Below the pieces are notes generated by a model. That model was not told the origin of the DNA. It saw nothing but the letters and a program-made list of their open reading frames with translations, and did not search any database. Source: a virus. From it: a stretch of 23,359 nt of DNA. The translations under genes and the position numbers were made by a program. The DNA is taken from positions 1 through 23,359 of the IMG/VR virus record IMGVR_UViG_3300037574_000019. One strand, 5' to 3'. Positions 1,408 to 23,359 of this stretch are shown here, piece by piece. How positions within the stretch are numbered: position 1 is the first letter of the stretch; every line of letters starts with the position of its first letter.

Positions 1408-1623
1408 TTAAGCGGCTCCGGCATCCACATTAAAGGGTAGAGACTTCGCTAGGTCGTGCATAGGTTCACTCTGGTCTAACGTGCCATCTATACCATTATC
1501 TTTGAGGAAGCCCCTAGCAACATTTAGTTCAGCAGCGGTTGCTTCACCACTCTGAATCTTTCCTAAGAGTTCTTCGGCTACTGCATTATGCAGATTAGCC
1601 ATCATTTCTTTACTTGCTTTCAT
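1408..1623 (-). CDS. Terminase small subunit (T7 gp18-like)
   Basis: DNA-recognition subunit of the packaging terminase, 71 residues, compared with 89 in T7. The chosen start is the ATG at 1623 (MKASKEMMANLHN), which overlaps the upstream stop as ATGA and has AGGA eight bases before it. A longer in-frame reading back to 1695 would run through the upstream gene and has no support. The N-terminal half is a helical segment (AVAEELLGKI, then TAAELNVARGFLKDNGI), the helix-turn-helix-like pattern common in small terminases of marine T7-like phages; the C-terminal tail is acidic and disordered-looking. The assignment rests mainly on size and on its position directly before the large subunit; the sequence itself is only weakly diagnostic. 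Confidence 0.82.
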   Translation of the reverse strand: MKASKEMMANLHNAVAEELLGKIQSGEATAAELNVARGFLKDNGIDGTLDQSEPMHDLAKSLPFNVDAGAA

Positions 1624-1844
1624 ATTTTGTTTCCTATAATTGTTACAACTATGGATGCTATCCCGCCTATGATGGCAGCAGCCCCAAAGAGCCATGCTTT
1701 AGATTGCTCCAGTTGTCGTATTCGTCGTTCTTGGTGTGCTAGTTCCTTATCGTGCCTGCTCTGTCGGCTAATAAGTGCGTCTACTTTTCCCTCTAGTCTT
1801 CCAAGTGCCAAGAGTATTTCCTTGTCTATTTTTAGTTCATCCAT
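1620..1844 (-). CDS. Small coiled-coil membrane protein in the holin slot (XhlA-like)
   Basis: A 74-residue protein. Residues about 5-48 are highly charged heptad-like sequence (LGRLEGKVDALI, then RRIRQLEQ), predicting a coiled coil. Residues 50-71 (WLFGAAAIIGGIASIVVTII) are one transmembrane helix, ending with a short GNKI tail. This layout is that of XhlA/haemolysin-type lysis accessory proteins. The gene sits between fibre and small terminase, exactly where T7 encodes its holin gp17.5, so a role in membrane permeabilisation at lysis is a reasonable inference, not a demonstrated one. The start is the ATG at 1844, one base after the upstream TAA, with GGGA seven bases ahead; the longer reading from 1883 overlaps the upstream gene and is less likely. 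The stop overlaps the next ATG as ATGA. Confidence 0.7.
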   Translation of the reverse strand: MDELKIDKEILLALGRLEGKVDALISRQSRHDKELAHQERRIRQLEQSKAWLFGAAAIIGGIASIVVTIIGNKI

Positions 1845-4185: not shown

Positions 4186-7100
4186 TTAATTATCCTTTTT
4201 CTGTATGTTAAGATTACTTATTATTTGGTTTGTTGCGGTATCCATTCCGGGGATTTTAGTCATCCATAGAAGACTAGCCGCATTCCTTAAATCAGATTGA
4301 GATAACTTATCTCCTCTAAATAAGGCCCCCGTTCCTTCTCGTAATGTAGGCCATGCTCTTCCATATAGTATACTATAAGGTACAGAGCCTCTAAGTGGGT
4401 CAATTCCAAGACCTGTGGTTCTCATGCTAGGGTCAAATACTGGCTCTCCTCCTAGCAGAAATGAACCGGAATCAATAATCATTGGGAATATAGAAGAATA
4501 GGAACCCTTCATTATCCCCGCTTTTATCAATTTGTTATCTTTAAATCTTTCTCGTAAATATTTCTTCCTCTCTTTATCACTCATTCCTAATGCCCGATAA
4601 TGGCTCTGTATTTGGTAAGCAAGGAGACCTAATCCCGCAGAACCTACCATATTCACAACCTCTTTTGCATCACCACGAGCAATCCCTGAAGCCAGTTGTT
4701 TTGATTTTGATGCCATCATAAATACTCTATATTGTCCTAGAAGTTTTCCAACCTGTGTGTTCATCCAAGCAGGGGTTTCTCCATAGGATTGCCTTTGGAC
4801 CATACTATCAGTATGTCTACGCAAGGCTAAAGCAAATTGGTCAAAAGCAAACTTATCAGTTACCTTCTCTAAATCTACGTTTTTGACAGTATATCTTCCA
4901 AACATTCCAGACTCTAGAGTAACGATACTCGGGTCGCTAAGTGTCTTATTGAGCCTTTCTAGCATTTCTTCGTCCATGCCTATTTCTTTGAATCGAACAC
5001 GGGAGTTATTCCAGAAACCTCTATTTAATACCGGCTTTCCTCCTTTAACACTATATGCCTGATTAACGAAGTGTTGGAAGGATGACCTTACAGCCCACCT
5101 TCTTAAGAATGTGTCCATAGGCATAATACCTAGAGGATTAAGCATGGCAGTCTGTCGCCCATAATCTAACCACCTATTGAAACCTTGTTTAGCAATATCA
5201 TCATCAAATCCAAGTTCATCTAAACGACGCATAAAGTGGTCGCCACGTCTGTAATCACCCGCAATCCCTGTAAAAGTTTCTAAAGTGGCTGATAGGTCAT
5301 CTTTAGAAAGTCCTTGAAGACCTAGTCCTTTTCGACCCTTAACAAGGTCTCTAATACCTAAGGTAAATATGTGACCTACTTCTTTTATACCCGGAAATTG
5401 CTGAAGAGAAGCCTTAAAACCAGACCTCATCATGATAGAAGCAATCTCTGGAATCTGAGCAAAACCGAGAGTCATTCCAATAGTGGCTTGCCCAAATGAG
5501 TTGGCTCCCATAATCCACTTCATAAGTCGGGGGTTCGCATAGATAGGAAGTCCCACAAGAGTATTATACACATGACTCACCACTTCGACTGCAAACTGTG
5601 AATCATCTCCTGCTTTTATTGATTGTTTTTCCACCTCTTCTACCACGTCTGATATAGTCATGGTCTCTCCCTTTTTCCCAAACAATGCCTTGAATCCTTT
5701 CTTAGTCTCCACACCGCCTATGACTCGCTGTGCATATCTTGTTGTATTAGAGAGTATATTATTATCAAAGAACTCGTCAATATGAACATCTCTTCCCCCA
5801 ATTCGCCCAGTAAAGGTTTCATCTAAATCAATACGTCGTCTACCGTAAGATATGTGGGGCTGATTATCGAGGTGTGGTATAAGTATATGCATGAACTCAT
5901 CTACTTGGTCTTCAGGTATTCCGTCTTTTATTAGTTTTGGTTTAAGTTTATTGAGCATGAATTGAGTTCCACGCCAATCCCTTGCTCCACTTGGGTTTGT
6001 TCCATATTCAACAATACGTTTAGCAATAGATTTTGCGTTTTTTTCTGATAATTTAGATGCTATAGATGCCTTGTGACTTCTTATTGCTTTTGCAAAGAAA
6101 TCTACCACTTGCTCTTCGCCAAGTTCTTCTACAAGTTTGGTGAACATCCGAGTATTATAGGCTCTGTGGAAGTAAGAAGAAGACTCTGGGATAGCCTCCA
6201 TAAACACTCCCCCCTCTTTACCATACTTTAACAACTCACTGTTGAATTTTCTTATTCCAGAAACCGCAATATTCAGAGGATTCAGACCCCCCGCCACTCT
6301 TGGTGGTATTTCGGCACCAGAACGAACGGCTCTAACAATATCTTTATTGGATAATTTAATTCCCTGTTGTCTTGCTAACTCGATTGCTTTCTTCATCTCT
6401 ATATTCAATCTAGAAAGAACCCTATCAACATTAGTTTTCACTGCAGTCGATATGTTCTGACCTCCGCCTCTAGAAGTTTCAAGCATGATGTCAGCAAATC
6501 GACGGGTTAGTTCACTTTTGTGCCTTAACAAACGATATGTTACGGGTGTGAAGAATTTATATAGTCCCCTCAATCCCGGAACATCTCCGGGGAATATATC
6601 AAGAAATCTAGCGAGTGTTTCTCGGAAGCCCAATGTATGATTAGTGAGTCCATAAAACAGGGAGTTTCCTTCTAGAGCCGATTCATCAATACGAATCATA
6701 TCAGCCGGACCCTCAGCGACAGGCTTTCCATTTGCATGAACAGTAACCTCTGGACCTTCCATAGGATGTGGTCGTGGGTCGTCGATGGTTCTAGGAAACT
6801 CTCCTCCCTCATCATCAATCTTAAATCTATGTGGAGTACGGTATTCAAATAGTCCCTGACCGGGTTCTAATTCTACTTCCTTACCGCCTACTATCCTCGT
6901 CTTTAAACCTTTTTGGCCTGCCCGAATATCCATATTCCTAATATCAATATCTATATTCCCACCTTTCTTTGCAGAAAGTGCTTTTTCTTCTACATCTTTA
7001 ACAAACTGCTTCGCAAGACGCTCAACACGCCCCTCTATCGTCATCCTACTGCCTTTGTTAAACCAAGCAATAAGAGCCTTCTTTTTCTCAGCATCTCTAG

Positions 7101-8442: not shown

Positions 8443-11313
8443 TTAATCCAATAAAAGGTTGTCTTCGTCATAATCTGGAATGTTTTCCATCTGCTCAAGC
8501 AATGAATCTCCACCAACACCCATTATGCTTCTATCCTGAATGTGCAAGGGGTGTCCTATTCTAGCATCTTGTCGTGGAGAACGAACTTTATGCTTACCTG
8601 TTTTTCTAGACCAAGTACCATGAATGTTATCCCAATCTCCTAGACCAACGACTTCATCAAGAGTAAAAGGGGTTCCATTTCTCTGGGGATTCCCTAAAGG
8701 AGTTATAAGTCCCTCCGGCCCCTTAACTAGAGCCATATACATCGAACCCCTACCAACAGCCTGAAAACCCACGAACTCCGAGCCTATTACTTGATTCTTC
8801 TCAGCCCACCATTTTGGGGGGTTAGTCTCCATTCTCTCGGTAGCAGCATCAAGAGCATCATATACAGTTATATCCCTTTTGCTGCTACTTCTTGATTTTA
8901 TATAATGCATAGCAACATTATTCATAACCTCGGAAAGTGTTTCATCTTCTTTGTCACTACCCATGCCGGGGATACCAATTCCTCTCAGAATAGGCTTTCC
9001 AATAGAAGCCGCAGCATCAGGGCTATGATATATCAGAGACCACCACATACGAACGGCATCCCCTACCCACGTCCTTTCTTCAGCAGACCCGTGTACGCCG
9101 GTCGGCATAGTTTCTCCGGGGTCTGACTCTTCTATAGCCCTGTCTATAAAACCGAAGAGTTGGTCATTAACGACTTTCGGAAGGGTGCCTGGTCCATCTA
9201 TTGGAATGAAACCCGCCAATATGTTAGGGTCAATACTTTCTTTTTCTACTAGAACACCACCTAGTGAAACCATAGATTTCTTCTTCATATCTATCGACTG
9301 CGTGATTGCCTCATCAAGAGGCATTCCTTGCACGAAGTTTAGCAACCTCGCCACGTTCTTTATTTCTTGGGTTACGGCTCCTCTATCCGCAATCATCTCG
9401 TCGCCCATGAAGTCCTCTACTAGACCATCTCCATCTGCTTCTGTCCACGCCGCCTGAATAGACTCCATCTTTGGAACATCCAGTGAGGTGAACATACTGA
9501 CTCTTTGGTATAGGGCTTCTATGGTCCCTGTATTTAGAAGAGTAGCAGCCGTATTATTATTAAGTGCCAAGTGTGACATTACGAAGAAATCACGAGTGTT
9601 GGGGTCTGGAATATGTCGCATGATTAAATCACGAGAGTCAAAACTCTCTAATGCTGAATATGCATGGATGGCTTGAGTGAAGGCTGCTAGTCCATGTGCC
9701 GCATCTCTTTCGTCTCCTACTCCCATTTGAGATGCATTTATTAGTTGCCATGATTCTTTAAAACTGGCGGAAAGGACATCTGAAGGTATGTTTGATTGTG
9801 CCGCAGATAAAGCGTGGGCTGTCGCCTCAGGGAAGGGGACATACTCCTCATCTGTAGGTGTCCCCGTCTTCTGTGCGTCCAACACCCTTTCATTTTTATT
9901 TAAAAGAATCTGAAGGGACTTATCATATACCTGTTGATAATACATATTATCAGACTCACTAACGACATCATCAAAATTTATTTGTCCGGTGTATCCTTCT
10001 TCGGTAGTAAATTTGATGGTATCTCCGTCTTTTACCATAGTCATTCCGTCTTGTTCAATAATAAGACTCTCTTGGAAATCCCTGAAGAACAACTTCTTCC
10101 ACTCAGTAGTGTTTAGTCGGGAATCAGAATTATGCCTCAACTGAGTCAGTCCCTGTGTGAGTTGGTTCTTGTAAGATAATATGTATGATTGGAATTGTTT
10201 AGTACCCGCTGCTTTAGATGAAGAAGCCTGATGAGCAGCGATGGTGTCTTTGCGGTCTCTGTAATATTTATTTACTGAACCAACTTCCCACAGAGGACTT
10301 CGTGCATTCTTCGGTCCGGTATCAGTTTTTAAAAGTATCGCTTCTGCAATCTTACTGGCGTATGGGTTGTCTTCATTCGCTGCTATATCAACTAAAGCGA
10401 ACCCAATCAACTCATGCATCTCATTGGGAACATGAAGACCGCCCCGTCCCCCATCCAACATTTGTGTTATAGATACCGCAGCCTGTTCCACCGCAGCATC
10501 GAAGTTTTCTTCGGGGGTTGGTGCAATAATCGGTCCAATAGTAGACCCCGGATATTGATTCATGTTAAACCCGCTTTGCACTACAGGGTCTATTTTAAAG
10601 ATAGACGCATTATCTACGATGCTTCCGACAGATTCTTTTACTGCTAATCTAGATTCATCAAGAACTCTCTCGCTCAACCACTCCCTATGTCTGGCCTCAT
10701 ATCCCTGCCTAAGAGTAGACTGTGCAACAATTATGTTTCTATCAAATACATCAGCACGTCCAATAGTGGGAGTATCTATGCCTTGAATTCCCGTATCCCA
10801 CCGAGCCATTGTTAAATCCATATTCAAAGCATCTGGGTTATTGGCTCTAAAAGTATCCCTCTCAGCATTCATTCTATCAGAGAAAGCATTAGCAGCATTA
10901 GTAGACATAGCATTGGCTTGTCCAAGGAGAGCCGCAGGATGTTGCATGGCATCGAGAGTTCCCTTACTAACTTCGTCTGCAAACACCAGACCAGTATCAT
11001 CCATTTGCTTCTTTAGTTCTACCATCTCCGCACCAAATTCTTCCATCTTGCCATATCCAGAAACATCGGCTTCGCCTAGTTGTTTAGCAGAATCACTAAG
11101 CATATTAAGAGATTTAGCAAGTGCGAGTTGGTCTTTAATACCTTGGTCGTCTGGGGCTACGGGTTGAGCGGCTTGTATAGGTGCGGCAGGAGCATTGGCG
11201 AGTCCGGGCTGTACAAAGGTATCAACGCCAGATGCTGTTACGCCAATCTGATTCTGTTGTACCCCGTATGAAACAGTTTGCCCTGAGGCTCTTTGTGGTC
11301 TTTTGCTTGCCAT
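8443..11313 (-). CDS. Internal virion protein (T7 gp15-like)
   Basis: A 956-residue, mainly helical, Gln/Ala/Asp-rich protein (T7 gp15 is 747). Position between a gp14-like and a gp16-like gene, size and composition support a structural part of the internal core that is ejected into the periplasm. The N-terminus is disordered (Gln/Ala/Pro-rich to about residue 55). The bulk is amphipathic helix, without transmembrane segments or recognisable catalytic motifs. Near the C-terminus a beta-rich part (FVGFQAVGRGSMYMALVKG, then TPFTLDEVVGLGDWDN) looks like a separate small domain. The assignment is mostly by synteny; the primary sequence of this family diverges fast. The ATG at 11313 has AAGG eleven bases upstream, which is a poor spacing, and lies 24 bases after the preceding stop. 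Confidence 0.8.
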   Translation of the reverse strand: MASKRPQRASGQTVSYGVQQNQIGVTASGVDTFVQPGLANAPAAPIQAAQPVAPDDQGIKDQLALAKSLNMLSDSAKQLGEADVSGYGKMEEFGAEMVELKKQMDDTGLVFADEVSKGTLDAMQHPAALLGQANAMSTNAANAFSDRMNAERDTFRANNPDALNMDLTMARWDTGIQGIDTPTIGRADVFDRNIIVAQSTLRQGYEARHREWLSERVLDESRLAVKESVGSIVDNASIFKIDPVVQSGFNMNQYPGSTIGPIIAPTPEENFDAAVEQAAVSITQMLDGGRGGLHVPNEMHELIGFALVDIAANEDNPYASKIAEAILLKTDTGPKNARSPLWEVGSVNKYYRDRKDTIAAHQASSSKAAGTKQFQSYILSYKNQLTQGLTQLRHNSDSRLNTTEWKKLFFRDFQESLIIEQDGMTMVKDGDTIKFTTEEGYTGQINFDDVVSESDNMYYQQVYDKSLQILLNKNERVLDAQKTGTPTDEEYVPFPEATAHALSAAQSNIPSDVLSASFKESWQLINASQMGVGDERDAAHGLAAFTQAIHAYSALESFDSRDLIMRHIPDPNTRDFFVMSHLALNNNTAATLLNTGTIEALYQRVSMFTSLDVPKMESIQAAWTEADGDGLVEDFMGDEMIADRGAVTQEIKNVARLLNFVQGMPLDEAITQSIDMKKKSMVSLGGVLVEKESIDPNILAGFIPIDGPGTLPKVVNDQLFGFIDRAIEESDPGETMPTGVHGSAEERTWVGDAVRMWWSLIYHSPDAAASIGKPILRGIGIPGMGSDKEDETLSEVMNNVAMHYIKSRSSSKRDITVYDALDAATERMETNPPKWWAEKNQVIGSEFVGFQAVGRGSMYMALVKGPEGLITPLGNPQRNGTPFTLDEVVGLGDWDNIHGTWSRKTGKHKVRSPRQDARIGHPLHIQDRSIMGVGGDSLLEQMENIPDYDEDNLLLD

Positions 11314-16139: not shown

Positions 16140-17210
16140 TTATACTGCCGCAGTGGTGAATTCATAACACGCTTCTTCACGAAGAATGCCATGACCCATT
16201 GCGTAACGAGCAAGTAATAGAGTACCGAGCCGCTCCATTACATATTCGCTTTCCATAGACAAATCAAGCAATTTCACAGTACCAACGGCTTCGGTTTGGA
16301 AACCAAGTCCTATGGTAGTTGAGAAATCTGCTTCACCATAACCTACACCGGCATCACCAAACACATCATTGTTAATCAATGCGGAGTTGTGGGTACCGAT
16401 TGGCGTAGTGGCTTCATTCGTACTTGGAATGTGATTACTTTTGAAAATACGACATCCTGCGACAGAAACAATTTCTCCGCCTGCAATCGAACCATTACCC
16501 TCTGGGTTAAAGTCACGATTGATAGCGTCTGTATTCTGTGCAATCATTTTGTAGTATTCTGCGGGTGGCATGATGACGTAACGACCATCTTCTGGTACGT
16601 TCTTCTCATCCATTTTCTGGGCCATTTCAAAGATACCATCTACCCATTCATCGCCGCCGATGGTTGAATCAGCAACTGGTGAATCAAGACCTAGACGTTC
16701 GCCAAGATATTCGGTAGCAGTACCACCAAATCTATCAGCGGTTTTTCTAGCACCCGCAATCACTGTACGAATAACATTCTTATCCGCAGCATAAGCGAGT
16801 TGTCGCCCAATTTCTGTGGAATAAATGCTTCTTACTTCATAGTGATTCTTTGCTTCATCAATATCAGCCAAGAAGGATGACGCTGTAAGAACACCGTCAA
16901 TAGCGATAGTTCGCTCTGAGTGATTGAGTTTGCTTAGGTATGTAGGTTCTGCATCAGCATTTTCGTCAGCGAACAGACTTTCACCAGGAGTGTGGTACGC
17001 AGCAGCAGCAACGCCAGTTACTGGAAATTGTGCTGTTTTACCACTTGTAATCGTCCGAGAACGATGTAGAGGTAACATAACATTGTTACTCTCAAATGTG
17101 GTAAGTACTTCACCACTGAACACCTTCAGAAATAGGTCATCATTACCCGGAACAGCCAGAGCAACGTCACGTCCTATCCTAGAAGGATTGTTTGAACCAT
17201 AATAAGGCAT
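16140..17210 (-). CDS. Major capsid protein (T7 gp10-like, HK97 fold)
   Basis: Forms the icosahedral shell, 356 residues (T7 gp10A is 345). Diagnostic phrases are LKVFSGEVLTTFESNNVMLP, RSRTITSGKTAQFPVTGVA, then YHTPGES, IDGVLTASSFLADIDEAKNHYEVRSIYS and GRQLAYAADKNVI, all matching the T7 gp10 core. DGRYVIMPPAEYYKMI at about residues 204-219 and the late GLGFQTEAVGTVKLLDLSMESEYV fit the rest of the fold. The gene has the best ribosome site of the window, AAGGAGG six bases before the ATG, its own leader and a strong terminator, consistent with the highest expression. There is no sign of a T7-style 10A/10B frameshift extension: the stop is followed by hairpins and no long open frame. Confidence 0.97.
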   Translation of the reverse strand: MPYYGSNNPSRIGRDVALAVPGNDDLFLKVFSGEVLTTFESNNVMLPLHRSRTITSGKTAQFPVTGVAAAAYHTPGESLFADENADAEPTYLSKLNHSERTIAIDGVLTASSFLADIDEAKNHYEVRSIYSTEIGRQLAYAADKNVIRTVIAGARKTADRFGGTATEYLGERLGLDSPVADSTIGGDEWVDGIFEMAQKMDEKNVPEDGRYVIMPPAEYYKMIAQNTDAINRDFNPEGNGSIAGGEIVSVAGCRIFKSNHIPSTNEATTPIGTHNSALINNDVFGDAGVGYGEADFSTTIGLGFQTEAVGTVKLLDLSMESEYVMERLGTLLLARYAMGHGILREEACYEFTTAAV

Positions 17211-17223: not shown

Positions 17224-17324
17224 ATATATAAAAACTAAAACGAAACGAAGATTGGAGACGTAGATACCTAAGTTATCCGTCGCAACGGGCAAAGATTCAG
17301 ATACCTCTTCTCTTCTATTAAATG

Positions 17325-17351: not shown

Positions 17352-17465
17352 TTATTTATTCCATGGCATCATATTAGACAGCCATGAATACATGGGTTTA
17401 CCCATGAAAGCACCCGCTATAAATGCAAGTGCGATAAAGAATATTGTCCCAAGTAATTCATTCAT
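17352..17465 (-). CDS. 37-residue single-span membrane protein, function unknown
   Basis: Found by reading the gap between the predicted lipoprotein and the capsid gene. ATG at 17465, stop TAA at 17352-17354, giving MNELLGTIFFIALAFIAGAF then MGKPMYSWLSNMMPWNK. Residues about 4-21 form one hydrophobic helix; the remainder is a short, Met/Trp-rich, slightly basic tail. AAGGA lies eight bases upstream, and the start overlaps the end of the upstream gene by eight bases, so translational coupling is likely. I know no T7 homologue at this place. It might be a small holin-like or membrane-remodelling peptide acting with the upstream lipoprotein, but no function can be assigned from sequence. The good ribosome site, overlap and clean transmembrane pattern argue for a real gene. 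Confidence 0.68.
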   Translation of the reverse strand: MNELLGTIFFIALAFIAGAFMGKPMYSWLSNMMPWNK

Positions 17466-17838
17466 TTGATTTTTCCTTGTATATTTCCAAAACAGTGTTC
17501 CACCCCCACGCTGCACTGACACAACCAGTGGCGATAATCACAGGAATGAAAATCCAATCAGCATATCGGGCTACCATATAATTCAAAAGAATTAAGAGTA
17601 TTCCGCCACAGAATGGTCGCCACCCCATGGTTCCTCTTGAAATTACGAGCAACGCCATGCCTGCCAAAAGACAAAGTCCCCCAACGCCGCTGAGGACAGT
17701 GAGGGTTTCTTGAGATTCTGTAATACTATCTAACACCCTATCAGTGGGGGAGGGTGGTGGGTCAGAAAATCCGGGGATTAACTGAGTCATCCCACATCCG
17801 GAGATGACGATGACGAGCAGAAATATTAAGTATTTCAT
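17458..17838 (-). CDS. Predicted lipoprotein with three further membrane segments, function unknown
   Basis: A 126-residue protein. MKYLIFLLVIVISGC is a typical lipoprotein signal with lipobox VISGC and acceptor Cys15. A Pro/Ser-rich periplasmic-type stretch (residues 20-45) follows, then hydrophobic segments at about 48-66, 73-90 and 95-112, and a charged tail EIYKEKSNE. The ATG overlaps the scaffold stop as ATGA and the 3' end overlaps the 37-residue gene. T7 has nothing between genes 9 and 10 of this kind. Possible roles include lysis (holin or spanin-like), superinfection exclusion, or membrane-linked assembly; none is supported by a motif. Being just ahead of the capsid gene, it would be expressed with the structural genes. 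I do not recognise the family. Confidence 0.8.
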   Translation of the reverse strand: MKYLIFLLVIVISGCGMTQLIPGFSDPPPSPTDRVLDSITESQETLTVLSGVGGLCLLAGMALLVISRGTMGWRPFCGGILLILLNYMVARYADWIFIPVIIATGCVSAAWGWNTVLEIYKEKSNE

Positions 17839-18605
17839 AAGATATTTGAGTTGTCCAATCGGGTTTCAATTTCCTTGCGATACGCAGGGTCTTTAGTATA
17901 CCTAACATCCTTCATGGCTGCTGTGAGTTCTGCGAGTGAGCGGAAACCGCCGTGTGCATTCGCTGAACCAGTGCTTCCCTGTAGGAGTGGGGTTCTTGGA
18001 GATGTGTGTGATTGCCACTGGCTCGACAGGCTCTTTATTGCAAACATCATTTGAGCAGAGTTTCCGCCCATTACAGCATCATTAAATACTTCTTGCTCCT
18101 CTGGGGCTAGATTCTCTCCTGCCCAATTAAGCATTTGATTATATTGTTCCTCTCCACCAACCGACCTATATACATCGTCGAATAGGGAGTTCACAAGGGA
18201 TTGCTGTCCTTCAATATATGAGTCAATCATTTCACGAGGAATTCCCATGCCTTCGATGGCAGTCCGGGATTCATTTGAAATATCACCAGTAGTATCAAAC
18301 TCTTCCGCAAATGGGGAAAAAGATTCTACTGAAAGAGATTCAGAAATCTTAGGAGTCTCTTCAGACGATTCCTCTCCGCTCTCACTGGCTTGTTTATCTC
18401 TCGTATAATTGGATTCAAGTTCTCCATATGCTTTCGCCATCGCCTCCGGAGAATCGAATTTCTCAGGTAGCCACTGGGGTCGTTGTTCTTCAACTCGTTC
18501 TGCTTGCTCTTCCTGCGGGGCTTCCTGCTCAAGGTTTTGTATGTCCTGTTCTGAGAATGCTTCGGTTTCACCTTGCACTATCTCTACTTTTTGGTAATCA
18601 CTCAT
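17835..18605 (-). CDS. Capsid assembly scaffolding protein (T7 gp9-like)
   Basis: Internal scaffold for procapsid assembly, 256 residues (T7 gp9 is 307). The N-terminal 90 residues are very acidic and Glu/Gln/Ser-rich (EQEAPQEEQAERVEEQ), with WLPEKFDSPEAMAKAYGELES at about 45-65, the phrase by which this family is usually recognised. The middle has NYTRDKQ and an acidic linker. The C-terminal part, from ELTAAMKDVRYTKDPAYRKEIETRL, is a basic amphipathic helix pair that in T7-like and other scaffolds binds the capsid protein. It overlaps the portal stop as ATGA and is itself overlapped by the lipoprotein gene. Position before the capsid gene supports the call. Confidence 0.93.
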   Translation of the reverse strand: MSDYQKVEIVQGETEAFSEQDIQNLEQEAPQEEQAERVEEQRPQWLPEKFDSPEAMAKAYGELESNYTRDKQASESGEESSEETPKISESLSVESFSPFAEEFDTTGDISNESRTAIEGMGIPREMIDSYIEGQQSLVNSLFDDVYRSVGGEEQYNQMLNWAGENLAPEEQEVFNDAVMGGNSAQMMFAIKSLSSQWQSHTSPRTPLLQGSTGSANAHGGFRSLAELTAAMKDVRYTKDPAYRKEIETRLDNSNIL

Positions 18606-21659: not shown

Positions 21660-21867
21660 CAGTTGAATCTCCTGTTTGTATTGCAAGTCGTCCTATCTCT
21701 ATCAAACCCACGCAGGCATGATATGCCCCAGAGAAAGAAACCGTTAAATCCTCAGTTTCTCCTGTTCTCCGGACAGCCCCTAATAATATCATTTCATCAT
21801 GCCTCTTTTGTAACTCTATAATTAGAGCCTTAGATGAAATAAACTCTAAACCCGTATCGTCTGTCAT
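21652..21867 (-). CDS. 71-residue hypothetical protein between homing endonuclease and exonuclease
   Basis: I do not recognise this family. The start is the ATG at 21867, which overlaps the upstream TGA as ATGA and has AGGG seven bases ahead; the longer reading from 21909 lies inside the homing endonuclease gene. The protein begins acidic (MTDDTGLEF), then has a helix ISSKALIIELQKRHDEMILLG, a basic turn RRTGETED, a strand LTVSFSG, and a second helix AYHACVGLIEIGRLAI, ending with an acidic tail. It looks like a small alpha/beta protein with no membrane segment. Its position in the replication block suggests an accessory role to exonuclease or polymerase. Confidence 0.65.
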   Translation of the reverse strand: MTDDTGLEFISSKALIIELQKRHDEMILLGAVRRTGETEDLTVSFSGAYHACVGLIEIGRLAIQTGDSTDE

Positions 21868-22211
21868 AGTGAAACCCTTTTTAATCCTTTCAACCTCGAC
21901 TGTATACACGCTCTCATTGCGGAGTGAGGTGGGTATTTATATATCTTTGATAGAAGCATCGCCTGTTCTTTCTTGTCTCGTAGGTATGGAACAAGTAGTA
22001 TACACACTTTTATTGATTTCTTACCCCCTATCTTCCAACGAAACACAGGTCTTCCAACAGAGGTAAGGCGAGATATGGCATAACACTGTCCACCCAAGAT
22101 ACGATATGCCTCTTCGACAACCGTTCTACAGGTAGAATCTATTGATATAGATGGGGATTTCTGAAACATAAAGCACCCCTCTCCATCTATTAGTCCTGCT
22201 AACCAACTCAT
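21864..22211 (-). CDS. Free-standing LAGLIDADG homing endonuclease
   Basis: Site-specific DNA endonuclease of the kind that spreads its own gene into related genomes; 115 residues from the ATG at 22211. Residues 4-12 read LAGLIDGEG, the single LAGLIDADG helix with Glu11 in the place of the catalytic Asp. The downstream pattern fits single-motif LAGLIDADG proteins: RPVFRWKIGG (about 64-73) and LLVPYLRDKKEQAMLLSKIY (about 83-102). One motif per chain means it should work as a homodimer. The gene starts one base behind the polymerase stop and ends overlapping the next ATG, without any sign of an intron or intein. A frame extension of 52 codons upstream (to 22367) overlaps the polymerase and is probably chance. 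Activity is untested. Confidence 0.9.
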   Translation of the reverse strand: MSWLAGLIDGEGCFMFQKSPSISIDSTCRTVVEEAYRILGGQCYAISRLTSVGRPVFRWKIGGKKSIKVCILLVPYLRDKKEQAMLLSKIYKYPPHSAMRACIQSRLKGLKRVSL

Positions 22212-22212
22212 A

Positions 22213-23359
22213 TCAATGAGTCTCTGCCCAGTTAATTCCGGTGTTGTATGACCCGTCAAGAGGGCATCGGAAACCAAGATTTTGTCCCGCTTCCTTAATG
22301 GATTCCACAGCAATCTTTCCGACCTCGTCGGCAATTTCTGTTCTACATTGTAATTGTATTTCATCATGTATGTGTGCTACCTGTTGTACATCAGCAATCC
22401 CCCATCCCATACTTCGGAACTTCCGATGTAGAATGCAAGTTGCTTCTTTCATGGCGATGGCTCCTGCGGATTGCAGAAGTGTGTTCAACGCACTATGGGG
22501 TGAACGTATATTTAACTTACGACCGTCAATTCCTGTCAGATACTCTTGATGCTTTAGACGGTATGCGATTCCTTCTTTAACTTTCTTAAGAGCAGGAATC
22601 TTAGAGAAGAACTTGGACTTTAACATCCTTCCTTCATTCCTACCTCCTCCCACTATCTGTCCTATCTTGTAATCTCCGGCTCCATAACATACGGCGTATA
22701 TAAGAGTTTTTGCATCATCTCTATTTTTCAGACCCGCCGCTTTCTGATTAGCAGTATGAATATCTCCCTCTAGAATCTCTTTGGTATAACCCCCATCATC
22801 AAAGGGGTAGGTGTAGTGAGCCAAACATCTCAACTCTAAACCACTAGCGTCCACGCCAACCAAAAGACAACCTTCGGGTGCAATGAACAACGAGCGACAG
22901 TCCTTGCCCCACAACGCTCCTACACGAGGAACCTGTGCCATGTTTGGTCTACTGTGGGTACATCGAGATGTTACGGCTCCGCAGGGATTTACCCCACCAT
23001 ATATTCGTCCATCTACTTCAGCCTTAAGCCATGACTCGTTGCCATCAGCAACCTGTCCTAGTCTTTTTGATACTGTGAGGTATTTGACCATGAGTTTGGC
23101 TTCTGGGAAACTGAGTTTACTGAGGACCTCTTCATTTAACTTTGGTCTTCCCTCAGGAGTGAACTCCTTAGGAGACCAACCATACTTCTCTTTAAAGGCA
23201 TCAGCAATCTGCTTTCTAGAGCCGGGATTGAACGGTATCTTCTTAACTCTTAACTCGCCGTTCAGCAATCTCTTTTTGGCGTCTGCGGGTGCTAATCCCT
23301 TACGTGCATACCTCTCATTAGTAATGGGGTCAATGTAATCTACAGGTGTCTTCATGGTC
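22213..23359 (-). CDS. DNA polymerase, family A (T7 gp5-like), N-terminus beyond window
   Basis: Replicative polymerase; the window holds the polymerase domain (about 382 codons of roughly 700), and the frame is open to the right edge, so the exonuclease domain is outside. GAVTSRCTHSRPNMAQVPR matches the T7 template-binding part. Motif A is LLVGVDASGLELRCLAHY with the catalytic Asp, motif B is RDDAKTLIYAVCYGAGD, motif C is HIHDEIQL with the second catalytic Asp. LNTLLQSAGAIAMK and the C-terminal INWAETH also match T7 gp5 (NWAICH). The residue equal to T7 Tyr526 / E. coli Phe762 is Tyr. An internal ATG at 23355 is not the true start. The T7 thioredoxin-binding loop would lie near the thumb, outside or at the edge. 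Confidence 0.97.
   Translation of the reverse strand, partial: TMKTPVDYIDPITNERYARKGLAPADAKKRLLNGELRVKKIPFNPGSRKQIADAFKEKYGWSPKEFTPEGRPKLNEEVLSKLSFPEAKLMVKYLTVSKRLGQVADGNESWLKAEVDGRIYGGVNPCGAVTSRCTHSRPNMAQVPRVGALWGKDCRSLFIAPEGCLLVGVDASGLELRCLAHYTYPFDDGGYTKEILEGDIHTANQKAAGLKNRDDAKTLIYAVCYGAGDYKIGQIVGGGRNEGRMLKSKFFSKIPALKKVKEGIAYRLKHQEYLTGIDGRKLNIRSPHSALNTLLQSAGAIAMKEATCILHRKFRSMGWGIADVQQVAHIHDEIQLQCRTEIADEVGKIAVESIKEAGQNLGFRCPLDGSYNTGINWAETH

Follow-up and report, generated by a model that had tools for sequence, protein, structure and literature searches.

A mobile pair of membrane-protein genes in uncultured phages as a candidate lysis cassette

By architecture, the nearest functional analogue of a multi-helix protein paired with an N-out/C-in one-helix protein is LysF1a/LysF1b of mycobacteriophages, whose role in lysis was established by deletion and both of which are needed for efficient lysis (PMC13056207). 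The gene pair described here likewise joins a multi-helix gene to a second, one-helix gene with a predicted N-out/C-in topology, but LysF1a has two helices and is N-in/C-in, and the LysF1 cassette also encodes lysins A and B (PMC13056207). Class I holins (lambda S105 type) resemble the lipoprotein of our pair in being small, with three helices, a predicted N-out/C-in topology and a positive C-terminal tail. Unlike them, our lipoprotein has a conserved lipobox and a probable lipid anchor, and it comes with a constant short partner, no above-threshold holin match and no endolysin neighbor that we could find. Unimolecular spanins (u-spanins) are lipoproteins with one C-terminal helix, no three-helix form being described in the part of the account cited here (PMC6139136). 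One of them, T1 gp11, also combines an N-terminal lipobox and a C-terminal membrane anchor in one small protein, but it has one helix and a beta-rich periplasmic domain, whereas our lipoprotein has three helices and a linker of 25 to 36 residues (PMC6139136). As for XhlA/XhlB of prophage PBSX, the window (the whole stretch of 23,359 nucleotides analyzed here) and several related genomes encode a coiled-coil membrane protein that is XhlA-like, but our lipoprotein matches no XhlB-type profile, and PBSX has a recognized endolysin, XlyA (PMC5589764).

The pair lies on the minus strand of the window. The first gene (17458..17838) encodes a lipoprotein of 126 residues, with a signal sequence ending in the lipobox V-I-S-G-C15 (VISGC) and three predicted C-terminal membrane helices (hydrophobic segments at about residues 46-66, 74-92 and 97-117). 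The second (17352..17465) encodes a single-span peptide of 37 residues with one helix and the core FxAGAxxGxP. Both frames are open, the stop of the first and the start of the second overlap by 8 bases (ATGAATGA), and AAGGA stands 5' of the start of the short gene. Upstream, the scaffold gene (17835..18605, minus strand; PF05396, E = 1.2e-19; phrog_1052, E = 4.9e-51) shares ATGA between its stop (17835) and the start of the lipoprotein gene (17838), and the major capsid gene (16140..17210, minus strand; PF21703, E = 5.6e-58) lies downstream of the pair. The first-pass annotation of the window, which had described a coupled membrane module of a lipoprotein with three further segments and a short peptide, was correct in this, as it was in naming the scaffold and major capsid genes. 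A scan around the cassette detected no promoter above chance. Several terminator-like hairpins were seen in the same region.

The charge distribution of both proteins fits the topologies predicted from their sequences. After cleavage by signal peptidase II, the lipoprotein would be N-out/C-in with three helices, and mean net charges over 23 members (linker, -1.0; loop 1, +2.0; loop 2, -0.65; tail, +2.65) are those expected for this arrangement. The window protein has a loop 1 charge of +2 and 31 residues between the Cys and the first of these helices (25 to 36 in the family). The short peptide is also predicted to be N-out/C-in, with mean net charges of -0.3 before the helix and +3.0 after it in 23 members. 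AlphaFold placed helices of the lipoprotein at residues 2-15, 32-66, 74-92 and 97-125, in a low-confidence model (pLDDT 65) that agrees with the helix prediction and has no strands in the linker, and it modeled the short peptide, from a single sequence, as one helix at residues 2-32 (pLDDT 84). Lipidation at Cys15 is predicted from the motif, and the residue after this Cys (+2) was never Asp in the 23 members, in keeping with a lipoprotein signal that carries an outer-membrane sorting residue.

A protein search of IMG/VR yielded 44 loci and a profile search 114, the best 80 of which were kept; pairing was counted over 57 non-identical loci. A short-peptide HMM matched at the 3' end of the lipoprotein gene in 56 of these 57, and in 54 of the 56 the two genes overlap or adjoin. 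L030 and L037 have a gap of ca. 500 bases between them, with a frame of ca. 160 codons inside the gap in L030. The 57th locus, L134, has an intact lipobox (LLTGC) and a divergent one-helix candidate frame that was found by eye. The lipobox Cys is invariant in all 23 aligned lipoproteins, as are the glycines of helix 1 and of the next loop. Values of dN/dS ranged from 0.13 to 0.30 for the lipoprotein gene and from 0.08 to 0.30 for the short gene (two short-gene pairs were saturated at synonymous sites), and both genes are under purifying selection. Thus, we saw neither of the things that the first-pass annotation had held would speak against the module, loss of the short frame or lipobox in relatives and substitution without protein-level constraint. 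Given its recovery by HMM in nearly all loci, the short frame is not a chance one, and the small gene is, as had been proposed, real and easily missed by gene callers. Since the pair is kept in 56 or 57 of 57 loci across unrelated contexts, we conclude that the unit has a function of its own. It is spread over several lineages of uncultured, probably marine phages.

Four kinds of genomic context were seen among the loci. The first is the scaffold-capsid gap of T7-like phages, found in the window and in thirteen other distinct loci. In the second (L004, L006, L015, L032 and L106), the pair stands between ssb/RusA-like genes and the primase-helicase gene, names that were read from sequence and gene order. 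The gene 3.5 lysozyme of T7 occupies the matching position, where roseophage CRP-113 has the order ssb, endonuclease I, lysozyme, primase. In the third, the pair adjoins genes for short one-helix coiled-coil proteins, either one or two of them, and in the fourth it is upstream of a portal-sized gene (L030). L129, of the third kind, has the pair between a tail gene and TerS/TerL, preceded by a coiled-coil one-helix gene (weak match to the Rz-like spanin family phrog_13, E = 0.0048); on the 3' side come a gene resembling a small terminase (phrog_1351, E = 0.0016) and then a T7-type TerL (PF22530, E = 1.9e-34). The holin of T7 is found at this same position. In G022, the pair (10.4 to 10.9 kb) is about 13 kb from the scaffold and capsid genes of that genome. 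The pair is therefore a mobile unit, with the scaffold-capsid gap as one site among several and not the defining one, and the idea that it is conserved between scaffold and capsid holds for the two genes staying together but not for their always being in that gap. In L081, L089, L112 and L114 (about 5450-5990), two short proteins in a row, both with an N-terminal helix and a coiled coil, are encoded directly upstream of the cassette; they have only weak spanin/holin matches.

Within the scaffold-capsid gap, the pair is exchanged with another. The two nearest portal relatives are L137 (portal 76% identical), which has the cassette, and L138 (75%), which has a different pair in the same gap (L138:12304-12846), composed of the KPGYKTTEFW membrane protein (64 residues; two holin families matched it weakly, at E = 0.015 and 0.018) and the VVFVPESDGLIRLGP lipoprotein. 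This alternative cassette uses the same slot and likewise supplies a membrane helix and a lipobox, but it carries them on separate proteins and is not matched by the profiles of our pair; it is itself unnamed, with no relatives among named phages by tblastn. It was present, complete or as its first member alone, in the gap of 37 loci (L138 and 36 others), numbers that are not frequencies, since each locus had been retrieved in a search for one of the two types; for the same reason, we make no use of a hypergeometric value calculated for their exclusivity. Among these loci, both cassettes occur together only in L040, where an alternative lipoprotein gene that is 5' truncated, with neither start codon nor signal sequence, lies downstream of the lipoprotein/short pair (about 8490-8640). 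This remnant is a trace of cassette replacement. In cyanophage-like relatives, the gap holds a Phage_lysozyme2 gene (PF18013, E = 1.4e-12) as well as hli and psbA (both read from sequence). HNH and basic proteins also occur in it. Therefore, the gap is a cargo site able to carry lysis genes but not reserved for them, and, since non-lysis genes are also hosted there, the slot alone is weak evidence for lysis. In pelagiphage and related genomes, the gap has an unrelated predicted membrane protein (L047:3847-4212, which is HTVC011P, and L049:4862-5233; phrog_2524, function unknown).

Searches with three divergent members (tblastn) found no relative of the pair in 50,697 named phage records, and two scans found none in 84,980 bacterial and archaeal genomes, so that the database search proposed in the first-pass annotation gave relatives in IMG/VR but no named phage. 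No credible Pfam, PHROG or PDB profile assignment was obtained for any of the 23 members (the best PHROG value, E = 0.0019, was to a family of unknown function). The PDB sequence search returned nothing significant, and Foldseek against viral and PDB libraries, run from the low-confidence model, gave only matches with E > 1. These are small phage proteins with membrane helices, as holins are, but the best holin-type profile match was Phage_holin_3_6 (E = 0.12, one member), and no endolysin gene was matched above cut-off with or near the pair in records that may be incomplete. Exclusion families fared no better, with one member each matching SieB (E = 0.052) and Cor (E = 0.25). As to spanins, the lipoprotein departs from the unimolecular type in its three helices and short linker, which in the low-confidence model is not a long, mainly beta periplasmic domain, and from the two-component type (Rz/Rz1) in having these helices, although coiled-coil genes adjoin the pair in some groups. 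A relation to gene-transfer-agent holins, an idea that came from a GWRP motif, was discarded, PF11351 being absent at E ≤ 1 in every member. Because the profile or architecture tests each failed, we do not file the pair as holin, spanin or exclusion protein; the cassette may nevertheless work like a holin.

Co-occurrence with an endolysin gene, another check that had been suggested, was negative for the families searched. Across 28 records (the window and 27 contigs with the cassette, which are classed as linear and may lack ends), no match to Amidase_2, Phage_lysozyme, Peptidase_M15_4, SLT, Phage_lysozyme2 or Peptidase_M15_3 exceeded the cut-off, and none to Hydrolase_2 did so in 20 records. 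When most of the unknown proteins encoded by G001, G002, G003, G004, G005 and G022 were scanned against Pfam, the families listed included no endolysin domain. As controls, Amidase_2 was matched in 4 of 5 named T7-like phages and Phage_lysozyme2 in two cyanophage-like contigs. The named T7-like marine and rhizobial phages differ in having a recognizable endolysin, whereas the searched cassette records, possibly incomplete, have none above cut-off. Amidase_2 was also absent from the sister phage and from further contigs carrying the alternative cassette, which makes the endolysin gap a trait of the clade and not of the cassette and leaves the notion that the cassette compensates for endolysin loss unsupported.

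Once likely spurious frames and virion proteins are set aside, G002, G003 and the 64-kb G022 have no credible membrane proteins of <260 residues other than the cassette and a single coiled-coil protein with one helix. In G001 there are two or three more one-helix frames, which have no assigned function, and the window itself is no more than a fragment of 23 kb. In the window, just upstream of the small terminase gene, the XhlA-like gene (1620..1844, minus strand) encodes 74 residues with a coiled coil and a C-terminal membrane helix, matching phrog_689 (holin, E = 0.0018) and PF10779 (XhlA, E = 0.0023, below the curated cut-off). The protein is common to the window, G001, G002 and L138 (the L138 copy is 55 to 64% identical to the other three) and is likely a lysis partner retained in sister phages.

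Taken together, these data lead us to favor, with modest confidence, a mobile two-component membrane cassette with a holin-like function in host lysis. Lysis was the first of the roles listed in the first-pass annotation and is the best supported of them, by slots, exchange and elimination rather than by homology. The pair appears to sit where T7 and CRP-113 keep a lysozyme and, in L129, where T7 keeps its holin; it is exchanged with a pair whose first protein resembles holins weakly, in a slot where cyanophage-like relatives keep a Phage_lysozyme2 gene; and few other small membrane proteins are present in G002, G003 and G022. In addition, the predicted topology of the short protein is that of LysF1b (PMC13056207). 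On the other side, the pair matches no holin, spanin or endolysin family significantly, neither its neighborhood nor the rest of the contigs gave an above-cut-off gene with an endolysin domain of the families searched, and the holin could instead be encoded by the XhlA-like gene, in which case the cassette would serve some other role. Under the lysis reading, the lipoprotein would undergo export and lipidation at Cys15, and its three helices (N-out, C-in) would keep it in the inner membrane, where it would accumulate and permeabilize that membrane at a set time. The short N-out/C-in peptide, made by translational coupling, would act as its partner or regulate its timing. The set would be completed by a separate coiled-coil membrane protein of XhlA-like or i-spanin-like type.

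The main rival is superinfection exclusion or immunity, in which the lipidated three-helix protein and its peptide would block genome entry of related phages at the inner membrane, much as other phage lipoproteins or membrane exclusion proteins do. The pair does behave as a portable accessory, but we consider this reading rather unlikely. It moves like an accessory gene among several sites, including one beside replication genes that are expected to be expressed before lysis, and the scaffold-capsid slot also carries accessory genes. However, the sub-threshold SieB and Cor matches of single members are at chance level, in the T7-like clade the pair replaces another membrane/lipoprotein pair instead of adding to it, and in some genomes nothing but the pair and one coiled-coil protein is left among membrane proteins to serve lysis.

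Improbable, in our judgment, is an atypical unimolecular spanin joining the membranes through an N-terminal lipid anchor and C-terminal helices. A lipoprotein signal with a C-terminal membrane helix is the u-spanin plan, as in T1 gp11 (PMC6139136), the absence of Asp after the Cys agrees with it, and members show weak Rz-like matches (best E = 0.0082). Yet there are three helices and not one, the linker, with no predicted strands, would extend to at most about 12 nm, probably too short for a normal periplasm, and the weak matches probably reflect a shared signal sequence, since phrog_6073 matched residues 1-15 only. We are slightly more doubtful still that the cassette forms the core of a lysis system independent of endolysin, in which the peptide and the lipidated protein with its three helices would breach the envelope with no dedicated soluble endolysin. 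A membrane-associated factor for virion assembly or genome ejection made with the scaffold, akin to the procapsid-linked role first envisaged, is suggested by the overlap with the scaffold stop in the window and by the scaffold-capsid position in T7-like loci of the clade but is very improbable, because the pair lies far from capsid genes in other groups, adjoining replication, terminase or portal genes (for instance, in G022), and an unrelated cassette takes its place in sister phages.

If the pair is a lysis cassette, as we favor, it extends the holin-like types by one with a lipid anchor and three helices, and the junction between scaffold and capsid genes in these T7-like phages is a site at which cassettes of this kind are exchanged. 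The pair was found at 114 places in one IMG/VR scan, across several lineages, and in none of the named phage records searched, which is why it is absent from curated families. With no recognizable endolysin found, how these phages open their hosts becomes a concrete question; were lysis endolysin independent, the clade would consist of tailed double-stranded DNA phages that infect diderm hosts and have abandoned the canonical holin-endolysin scheme.

Two other elements of the window deserve mention. In the interval that separates the short gene from the capsid gene, a single-copy hairpin (17272..17289, minus strand; CCGT-TGCG-ACGG, then ATAAC) is conserved in position among 13 related loci, and HTVC011P and CRP-113 have CTGA-TACG/TGCG-TCAG at this site, that is, paired stem changes around a UNCG-type loop. 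It had no Rfam match. The hairpin is probably an RNA element and not part of the cassette, possibly one that processes or stabilizes RNA before the capsid gene. Finally, an HNH-type endonuclease gene (21864-22367, minus strand; phrog_5046, E = 8.7e-18; weak LAGLIDADG matches) sits between a DNA polymerase fragment and an exonuclease gene.
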